DNA from: Azospirillum brasilense
GTDB taxonomy: Bacteria > Pseudomonadota > Alphaproteobacteria > Azospirillales > Azospirillaceae
Reading direction: 5' to 3'
Length of the DNA stretch: 64,000 bases
Assembly: GCF_007827795.1 (NCBI RefSeq)
Contig: NZ_VITI01000013.1
Coordinates: 1-64,000, forward strand
Position 1 is the stretch's first letter, and each line of letters begins with the position of its first letter. Below, piece by piece: positions 58,216-63,852 of this stretch. The notes under the pieces were generated by a model, which saw nothing but the letters and a program-made list of their open reading frames with translations, was not told the origin of the DNA and did no database searches. The position numbers and the translations under genes are program-made.

Positions 58216-61200
58216 TTGCCGACAGCGCCCAAATCGAACGCATTTTCCGGCCCCATCGAGGGCGAGGCCCTGTCCCTGCTTCAGGACGAACTGCTTCCCG
58301 GCTTCCTGACCGGACGGCGCTGGTACGCCGCCAAGGACGCCGGCACGCCCACCGTGCTCATCGTCGATGCGCTGCCTCTTCCGCTGGCCTCCGGCTCCGC
58401 CCAGCTCTGCCTGCTGCGGGTGGAGGCACCGGGGCGCGAGCCGCAGCTCTACCAGCTTCCCCTGGTGCTCAACCGCGGCGGCAAGGCCGACACCGCCGAC
58501 CCCTTCTCCATCGCCGGCCCCGAGGCGCTCCCCTGGCCGGGCAGCCTGCGCGACGGCTACGGCGACGAGGAGGTGGTGCGCGCCCTGCTCGACGGCATCC
58601 GCAAGGGTGGGGAGAACGGCGGTCTGCGCTACGGCCGCAGCCGCGCCCTCGACGCCGTGAGGGACGCGTTGGGCAACGGCGCGCCGCTGCGCTGGACGGA
58701 CGCGGAGCAATCCAACACCTCCGTCCGCGTCGGCGACGCGGCGATTCTGAAGGGGCTGCGCAAGCTGGAGTCCGGCACCCATCCCGAGCTGGAGGTTGGG
58801 CGCTTCCTGACCGAGGTCGCCAACTTCCGCAACACCCCCGCCCTGCTCGGCTGGGTGGAGCGCACGGGCGACGGCGAGGCCGCCACCCTGTGCATCCTGC
58901 AGGAACTGGTCCCCGACGCCCGCGACGCCTGGAGCCACGTCACCGCAGCCCTGGCGGAGCGCGTCGAACGCTTCGACGAGAAGGCGGACGACGTCGCCCT
59001 GATGACCTTCATGCGCCGGCTGGGCCGCCGCACGGCGGAGATGCACCGGGCGCTCGCAACCCCCGGCGGCGGCGACGCCTTCACGCCGGAGCCGGTGACT
59101 CCCGCCATGCTGACGGGCTGGGCGGACGGGGTGCGCAGCCTCGCCCGCCGCGTGCTGGGCCAGCTGCGCGAGGCCGCCCCGCGGCTGAACGCCGACGTCG
59201 CCCCTTACGCCGCCTCCCTGGCCGACAGCGAGGCCACGGTGATGCGCCAGATCGAAACGCTGACGCCGCCGCGCGGCGACTTCTGCGCCATGCGGCTGCA
59301 CGGCGACTATCACCTGGGGCAGGTTCTGGCCGGCAAGGACGACCTGTTCATCGTCGATTTCGAGGGCGAGCCGATGCGCCCGCTGGCCGAACGGCGGGCC
59401 AAGCACTGCATCCTGCGCGACGTGGCGGGGATGCTGCGCTCCATCACCTACGCCGCCGCCGGGGCGCGGGCCGCCCTGCCCGACGACCTGGGCGAGTCGG
59501 CGCGCGGCGCCCGCATCGCCTGGCTGAACTGGTGGGAGGGGGAGGCGGCATCCGCCTTCGTCGCCGGCTACCGCGAAGCCATCGGCGATTGTCCGGGCTG
59601 GCCCGCCGACGCGGCGACCGCCACGCAGCTTTTGAAACTCTTTTTGTTGGAGAAGGCGCTCTACGAGATCGGGTATGAGCTGGCGAACCGGCCCGACTGG
59701 CTGGCCATCCCGCTGGCCGGAACCATCGGCATCCTAGGCGCCGACGCCGGGCCGGAGGTTGCCGACCGCGCGTCCGGCCCGGTCGGGCTGGCCGCTCCCG
59801 GCGCCACCCGCTTCGGCGAGGCGCGCGCCCACGCCATGCCCTTCGGCGCGCAGGTGCAGCCCGACGGCTCCGTCCGCTTCAGCCTGTGGGCGCCGGGCAC
59901 GGAGCAGGTGTCGCTGTGGCTGGAGGACACCCACGCCCTGCTGCCCATGGTCCGGCGGCCCGACGGCTGGTTCGAATGGACCACCGCCCAGGCCCAGGCG
60001 GGCAGCCGCTACCAGTTCGAGCTCCCCGACGGTCTGCGCGTGCCCGACCCGGCCTCCCGCCACCAGCCGGAGGACGTGCACGGGCCGAGCGAGGTGATCG
60101 ACCCTACCATCCACCGCTGGACCGACGCCGCCTGGACCGGCCGTCCCTGGCACGAGACGGTGCTGTACGAGCTTCACGTCGGCACCTTCACCGAGGAAGG
60201 CACCTTCCGCGCCGCCATCGACAAGCTCGACCACCTCGTGGAGCTGGGCGTCACCGCCATCGAGCTGCTTCCGGTGGCCGATTTTCCCGGCGCCCGCAAC
60301 TGGGGCTATGACGGGGTGTTGCCTTACGCCCCGGACGCTGCCTATGGCCGCCCGGAGGATCTGAAGGCGCTGGTGGACGCCGCCCACGCCAAGGGGCTGA
60401 TGGTCTTCCTGGATGTCGTCTACAACCATTTCGGGCCGGACGGGAACTACCTCCACGCCTACGCCAAGGCCTTCTTCACCGACCGGCACAAGACGCCCTG
60501 GGGCGACGCCATCAACGTGGACGGGCCGCGCAACGCCACCGTGCGCGACTACTTCATCCACAACGCGCTCTATTGGATCGAGGAATTCCACATGGACGGG
60601 CTGCGCTTCGACGCGGTCCACGCCATCCTCGACGACAGCGACAAGCTGTTCCTTCAGGAGCTGGCGGAGCGCGTGCAGGACGCCGTGCGGGGCCGCCGCC
60701 ACGTCCATCTCGTTCTGGAGAACGACGAGAACGAAGCCCATCTGCTGGAGCGCCACCCGGAGGGCGACCCGCGCTGGCACACTGCGCAGTGGAACGACGA
60801 CCTGCACCACTGCTTGCACGTCTGGGCGTCCGGCGAGGACAGCGGCTACTACACCGACTACGCGAGCGACGCGGCGAAGCTGGCCCGCGCCATGGCGGAG
60901 GGCTTCGCCTTCCAGGGACACGCCTCTTCCTACCGCGGCGGCGAGGCGCGCGGCGAGCCATCGGCGCATCTGCCGCCGACCGCCTTCGTCACCTTCATCC
61001 AGAACCACGACCAGATCGGCAACCGCGCCTTCGGGGAGCGAATCACCCGCTTCTCCCGGCCCGAGGCGGTGCGGGCGGCGACCTCGCTCTACCTGCTGGG
61101 GCCGGGCATCCCGATGCTGTTCATGGGCGAGGAATGGGCCTCCGACCGCCCCTTCCCCTTCTTCTGCGACTTCGCCGACGAATTGGCCGAGGCCGTCCGC

Positions 61201-63852: not shown

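Follow-up and report, generated by a model that had tools for sequence, protein, structure and literature searches.

The gene mak-treZ-malQ, at 58216..63852 of the window (the whole 64,000-nucleotide stretch of Azospirillum brasilense DNA analysed here; this feature and those below whose limits are written with two dots lie on the forward strand), encodes a single polypeptide that joins a maltokinase (Mak), a malto-oligosyltrehalose trehalohydrolase (TreZ) and a 4-alpha-glucanotransferase (MalQ). As the initial annotation had proposed, the three parts follow each other in that order, and each scores above the cut-off of its curated family. On balance, the polypeptide probably acts where trehalose synthesis and GlgE-type alpha-glucan synthesis diverge.

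Architecture of the fused protein

Domain searches and a conserved architecture support the gene. The frame is open over 1891 codons (58177-63852, ORF reading of the window), and TTG 58216 is its likely start, giving a product of 1878 aa; from sequence reading, AGGGAG (58203..58208), 7 nt before this TTG, would be a Shine-Dalgarno-like element. The maltokinase domain (Mak/Pep2) with its N-terminal cap (58267..59733) carries the P-loop EQSNTS and the motifs HGDYHLGQ and DFEGEP. It is followed by a linker (59734..59838) that varies among relatives and of which residues 493-525 have a pLDDT <50 in the structure model, by the TreZ domain (CBM48, GH13 barrel and DUF3459; 59839..61620) and by the MalQ domain (MalQ_N and GH77; 61630..63777), whose limits are those of a PRK11052 match that itself scores 686 bits, below the cut-off of 806.

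Searches of the full protein with NCBIfam and Pfam models agree on three enzymes. The kinase part scores 399.6 bits with the putative maltokinase model TIGR02457 (cut-off 375.05, also exceeded by all five relatives tested), the TreZ part 727.3 bits with TIGR02402 (cut-off 538.8), and the MalQ part 455.6 bits with the malQ model TIGR00217 (cut-off 205.65). The Pfam matches are Mak_N_cap, CBM_48, Alpha-amylase, DUF3459, MalQ_N (PF21226, 51.9 bits) and Glyco_hydro_77 (PF02446, 403.7 bits); the cap, PF18085, reaches 26.6 bits against a cut-off of 22 and is also matched in L037, while no match to it was found in the Belnapia locus L162. Among proteins of known structure, the TreZ part matches the TreZ 2bhu (phmmer, 3e-122), the MalQ part the MalQ 4s3p (phmmer, 1e-143), and the kinase part the maltokinase 5jy7 (141.4 bits). 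A glucosamine kinase identity was rejected, given a score of 93.5 with NF041273 (cut-off 550) and a match to 6hwj, at 45.1 bits, weaker than that to 5jy7.

All eight catalytic residues listed in the initial annotation are found at their positions, numbered from TTG 58216. Those of the kinase are D364, in HGDYHLGQ, and D381, in DFEGEP. In the TreZ part, D799 (DGLRFDA), E835 (LVLEND) and D932 (NHDQIGNR) are presumably the GH13 catalytic Asp/Glu/Asp, and in the MalQ part I take D1619 (LRIDH), E1667 (GEDLG) and D1719 (SHDL) to be the corresponding GH77 triad. These motifs are conserved in the relatives. EQSN.S, HGD.HLGQ and DFEGEP occur in 47/47 fused kinases (leaving the Ala of AEQSN out of the count), as does the phosphate-binding Lys (45 by regular expression, 2 by eye). 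The P-loop, this Lys, the HGD base, and the Mg-binding Gln and DFE Asp are residues named for the mycobacterial maltokinase in PMC4306142. TreZ motifs are present in 42 of 43 frames, the single miss being the first piece of a broken frame (L041); R.DH and GEDLG of MalQ are found in 48/48, and HDL in 47 of the 48, the last having HDM. Purifying selection acts on all three fusion domains: across five species pairs, their dN/dS and that of TreY range over 0.07-0.35. All three activities are predicted to be present in the fused form.

It had also been suggested that the N-terminal domain may only bind or sense maltose. Some kinase-like domains are regulatory, and among distant members Mak is less well conserved than the other two parts of the fusion (42-51% identity outside the genus, against about 64% for TreZ and 49-59% for MalQ). 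A catalytically dead module of this sort is nevertheless very unlikely, since all 47 fused kinases keep the conserved residues and the dN/dS of Mak is 0.16-0.33.

If the chain were cleaved, or if translation also began internally, the product would be three ordinary separate enzymes. A Met does stand at the TreZ start (H.MPFGA or similar) in many fused proteins, and in the junction DNA of the window GAGG lies 14 nt before it. However, such a Met would be expected where a gene once began, 14 nt is a long spacer for a ribosome-binding site, and six loci join Mak straight to MalQ, all of which makes this explanation highly improbable.

Downstream, the malto-oligosyltrehalose synthase gene treY directly follows the fusion; its start occupies 63950..64000, and it continues past the window on the same contig, its full protein scoring 1002.7 bits with TIGR02401 (L027). 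In four other genomes (G023, G032, G065, G076) treY lies elsewhere. A GC-rich, palindrome-like repeat occurs twice around the gap before treY (63820-63843 and 63904-63927), and the first copy codes for the C-terminal residues NPLSPLGRGLG of the fusion. Upstream, at a distance of 79 nt, lies a small conserved gene of 104 aa (57822..58136), whose product has no Pfam match and is 71-99% identical across 35 matched loci. Within the L027-L116 set, the genus has 40 fused-type loci, and 38 of these, the Mak-MalQ locus of G040 included, gave a tblastn match to it; L046 (G023), L085 (G032) and the loci from outside the genus gave none. Genes for tRNA-Leu(cag) and tRNA-Ala(ggc) lie further upstream (57392-57584). 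A search by eye upstream of the fusion gave no convincing EcfG-type promoter. The fusion gene is 94-95% identical in DNA to plasmid records of Azospirillum sp. TSH58, A. brasilense and A. argentinense.

Distribution and comparison with known fusions

A kinase match was found in 57 genomes of the family sample (82 genomes; an order-level search gave the same 82). Among the 50 kinase loci without TreS, 40 have Mak-TreZ-MalQ in a single frame (one of them, L043, reaching the contig end within MalQ) and six have Mak-MalQ without TreZ. The remaining four are two loci cut by a contig end before TreZ, a broken frame and a kinase-only frame (G001) with no Pfam match. In one genome whose kinase is cut in this way (G019), a TreZ-MalQ frame stands at the end of another contig. 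The broken frame (G044, L041) is interrupted inside TreZ, which may reflect a sequencing error or decay. The occurrence of the same single frame in independent genomes, at 40/50 non-TreS loci, indicates that the three-enzyme fusion is real and owes nothing to chance or to an artificial joining of separate genes, and a sequencing or assembly error in the window was rejected on this ground. The same domain order recurs in Belnapia moabensis. The view that these are unusual partners for a maltokinase is upheld, yet the arrangement is not confined to one genome, a fused-type kinase being present in 40/45 genomes of the genus.

Plasmid records of A. lipoferum 4B, A. ramasamyi and Indioceanicola profundi carry the fusion. 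Further carriers, among the 80 of 584 contig matches listed, are at least A. endophyticum, A. oryzae, A. oleiclasticum and B. moabensis; Skermanella stibiiresistens has the Mak-MalQ form. Indioceanicola, A. ramasamyi, A. oleiclasticum, A. oryzae, A. endophyticum and Skermanella were already in the family sample, and Belnapia is additional. Belnapia is labelled Roseomonadaceae, and its fusion was possibly acquired by horizontal transfer. The kinase frames of loci L146-L236 comprise 72 TreS-Mak, eight kinase-only, seven triple and one Mak-MalQ.

In a search of the class sample that scored two candidates per genome, at least 114/385 genomes have a match, and among the matches listed the genome of the window is the only one where a single match covers the greater part of both TreZ and MalQ. 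Kinase matches occur in at least 40/385 genomes of the class sample (four candidates scored per genome) and in at least 58/398 of the phylum sample (three per genome). Domains were read in 14 of the 38 class matches other than G000 and G079 (L069-L080, L118, L119), none of which has TreZ or MalQ in the kinase frame, and in three new phylum genomes (G754, G637, G508), where the kinase is likewise fused to neither; the other class and phylum matches were classed by frame length alone. In one of the latter three genomes a maltokinase-only frame of 574 aa lies directly downstream of glgE (L155, G637).

The closest known counterpart is TreS-Mak (TreS/Pep2), in which a maltokinase is likewise joined to a maltose-producing alpha-glucan enzyme and supplies GlgE, and of which the genome of the window has one. 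Unlike TreS-Mak, the fusion described here has its kinase at the N-terminus, TreZ and MalQ as partners, and no TreS domain; it scores 42.2 bits with treS_nterm (cut-off 678.35). MalQ-TreY proteins (NF011077, PRK14507), found as single frames in other Alphaproteobacteria (L118-L121), resemble it in that MalQ is fused within a treZ-malQ-treY neighbourhood. They differ in joining MalQ to TreY, whereas here MalQ is joined to TreZ and a kinase and TreY has its own frame, and membership in this family was rejected (839.2 against a cut-off of 2148). GlgX-MalQ proteins (NF011082, PRK14510), one of which occurs in G058, also join a glucan-trimming enzyme to MalQ but have neither kinase nor TreZ; membership was rejected here as well (559 bits, cut-off 2511). 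Finally, the N-terminal half of NF011293 (PRK14705) matches the kinase (38-533 on 12-483). From its two matched halves this model appears to describe a maltokinase-GlgB fusion, where the partner of the kinase is a branching enzyme, and the window protein was rejected as a member (210.8 bits, cut-off 2376).

No description of a Mak-TreZ-MalQ fusion, let alone a wide one, was found among the papers listed in searches of open-access literature. TreS-Mak is the only such fusion mentioned in the available parts of a 2024 Chem Rev review (PMC11046441) and of a genomics paper on Defluviicoccus (PMC9041414); the latter cites Chandra et al. 2011 for fused treS-pep2, a source that may contain a further entry.

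Descent of the fusion and its natural dissections

In a tree thinned to 49 of 68 rows, the fused kinases group with the long-branched, kinase-only G001 in a clade that excludes the TreS-Mak kinases (support 100). The fused MalQ likewise form one clade, distinct from separate MalQ (support 100; 45 of 64 rows plus two added). The TreZ tree (45 of 64 rows plus one added) differs. A single clade of all fused TreZ was rejected (AU p 0.0017), also with Belnapia added and Rhizobium left out (p 0.0003); the distant TreZ L032 was dropped from these clade tests. G068 and G075 have an unfused treZ that nests within the fused TreZ, and in the TreY tree (42 of 61 rows plus one added) these two genomes stand beside G066 (99), so that their treZ-treY probably derives from a fused locus. 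A clade of fused TreZ, G068 and G075 with Rhizobium outside was weakly rejected (p 0.0365). A Rhizobium plasmid TreZ (L146, 8836-10593) groups with the fused-type TreZ, a placement that possibly reflects transfer or a long-branch effect.

For Mak and MalQ combined, a single clade of all triples was rejected (AU p 2.8e-27). Mak-MalQ forms are thus interleaved with triples, and the presence of TreZ must have changed at least twice. The favoured reading is that TreZ was lost from a triple, since the linker of G040 retains the ADAGPEVADR of the triple Mak-TreZ linker and G040 is nested in the Mak+MalQ tree (98; genus triples apart from G040, p 0.03). The MalQ-only tree places G040 outside the other genus members (93). 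The alternative is two gains of TreZ instead of losses.

Relatives that have some parts and not others suggest how the activities are associated. GlgE is present in 49/49 family-sample genomes with a fused-type kinase (including the two contig-end cuts and the broken frame) and in 8/33 of the others, a co-occurrence that shared ancestry confounds. Each of the six Mak-MalQ genomes encodes a separate TreZ with a high score, and in four (L126-L128, L145) its gene adjoins malQ. Conversely, G068 and G075 retain treZ-treY of the fused-locus type, but neither Mak nor GlgE was found in them, nor any MalQ match reaching E 1e-30, a threshold that a distant GH77 MalQ, such as those of G067 and G069 (E about 1e-18), would escape. 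Two members of the genus of the window that lack the fused kinase (G014, G017) have GlgE and TreS-Mak. Among 45 genomes of the genus, 38 have a fused-type TreZ, three a separate one (G014, G017, G040), none both and four neither; this tally sets aside the distant second TreZ and rests on score and frame length and, for part of the sequences, on trees. Three genomes of other genera (G053, G065, G066) combine a fused TreZ with a separate high-scoring one, which weakens the idea of a strict exchange of types. Taken together, the patterns of presence and absence suggest that Mak pairs with MalQ and GlgE, and TreZ with TreY.

The fusion may instead serve only to fix equal amounts and shared regulation of three independent enzymes that are not coupled, the kinase acting mainly on maltose made by TreS. 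In unfused relatives treZ, malQ and treY are already neighbours (L129-L132, L134), and in other bacteria treS-mak or mak lies a few genes away within the cluster (L118, L119, L185), so that a fusion could arise from adjacency alone. In the unfused loci read, however, the kinase never directly precedes treZ or malQ, which implies that joining it took a rearrangement. Moreover, Mak and MalQ remain fused where TreZ is absent (6/50 loci), and they are jointly missing in G068 and G075, within the MalQ threshold given above. The structure model of Mak-TreZ (mean pLDDT 68, 13 sequences) is reliable for the kinase alone and uninformative on domain packing; its low-confidence linker favours uncoupled enzymes. 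With the evidence on both sides, I consider uncoupled enzymes a credible though rather unlikely explanation.

A putative branch point in alpha-glucan metabolism

The cell has a full GlgE pathway and, besides the kinase of TreS-Mak, a second maltokinase in the fusion. The initial annotation had raised the presence of GlgE and TreS elsewhere in the genome, and both GlgE and TreS-Mak were found. Elsewhere in the genome, one contig holds TreS-Mak, GlgB, GlgX and a separate MalQ; there is also a TreS-like protein, which scores 597.8 bits, below the cut-off of 678, and a second GlgX. Its GlgE has an added N-terminal, amylase-like part: the frame is 1137 aa long (L029, 4257-7667, contig C5), with about 490 extra N-terminal residues that match alpha-amylase and glycogen-debranching glucanotransferase models, and 54 of 57 family-sample GlgE frames measure at least 1117 aa. 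The genome also encodes another, distant TreZ, which shares 44.5% identity with the fused TreZ and lies beside a GDE-type debranching enzyme (L032, 4012-5985 and 5915-8038, contig C10).

In the mechanism that I propose, linear maltodextrins freed from glycogen would have two alternative uses. In one, MalQ would disproportionate them to maltose, and the attached maltokinase would use ATP to turn this into the maltose-1-phosphate that GlgE consumes. In the other, TreY, the product of the next gene, would convert the reducing ends of the maltodextrins and TreZ would then release trehalose. Maltose is the putative substrate of the kinase, as first suggested, but it need not be "leftover" maltose, since the genome also encodes GlgE, TreS-Mak, GlgB and GlgX and the relatives suggest a Mak-MalQ unit.

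That MalQ makes maltose for Mak is suggested by the patterns of presence and absence and by a published reaction in vitro: with the separate proteins of Pseudomonas aeruginosa, MalQ and TreS/Pep2 form maltose-1-phosphate from maltohexaose and ATP (PMC8084333). The operon there, glgA-treZ-malQ-treY-glgX, together with a TreS/Pep2 encoded apart from it, provides the same enzymes, all as separate proteins except TreS/Pep2 (PMC8084333). In the same study, treY and treZ mutants still contain maltose-1-phosphate and deletion of treS/pep2 abolished it, while deletion of malQ changed it little (0.22 vs 0.30%, a difference not marked significant). The small effect of losing malQ alone favours uncoupled enzymes and, together with the threshold-bound absence of MalQ in G068 and G075, weakens the coupling reading. 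The solved TreS:Pep2 complex likewise favours uncoupled enzymes, its authors having seen no channel (PMC6509496). The fused parts may also be redundant, as TreS-Mak can supply maltose-1-phosphate and there is a separate MalQ too. I nevertheless infer that coupling of MalQ to Mak is the reason for the fusion, and that it would operate by co-localisation and not through a physical channel.

A bolder and quite doubtful extension is that the protein is a flux switch within one molecule. Mak-MalQ would be a dedicated converter of glycogen to maltose-1-phosphate, an entry to GlgE independent of trehalose, the intervening TreZ would compete for the same maltodextrins, and glucose, ATP or conformation would decide between trehalose and polymer.

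Azospirillum live in soil and promote plant growth, and survival under stress has been linked to both trehalose and glycogen. The present results correct the annotation of such proteins, RefSeq WP_111068116.1 (A. ramasamyi, 1868 aa) being called only malto-oligosyltrehalose trehalohydrolase, and the relatives that lack one part or another are ready-made test constructs. The fusion points to a MalQ-to-maltokinase bypass of the P. aeruginosa type in a second bacterial group, and it would be a naturally occurring covalent bridge between trehalose and maltose-1-phosphate, the two exits of alpha-glucan breakdown.
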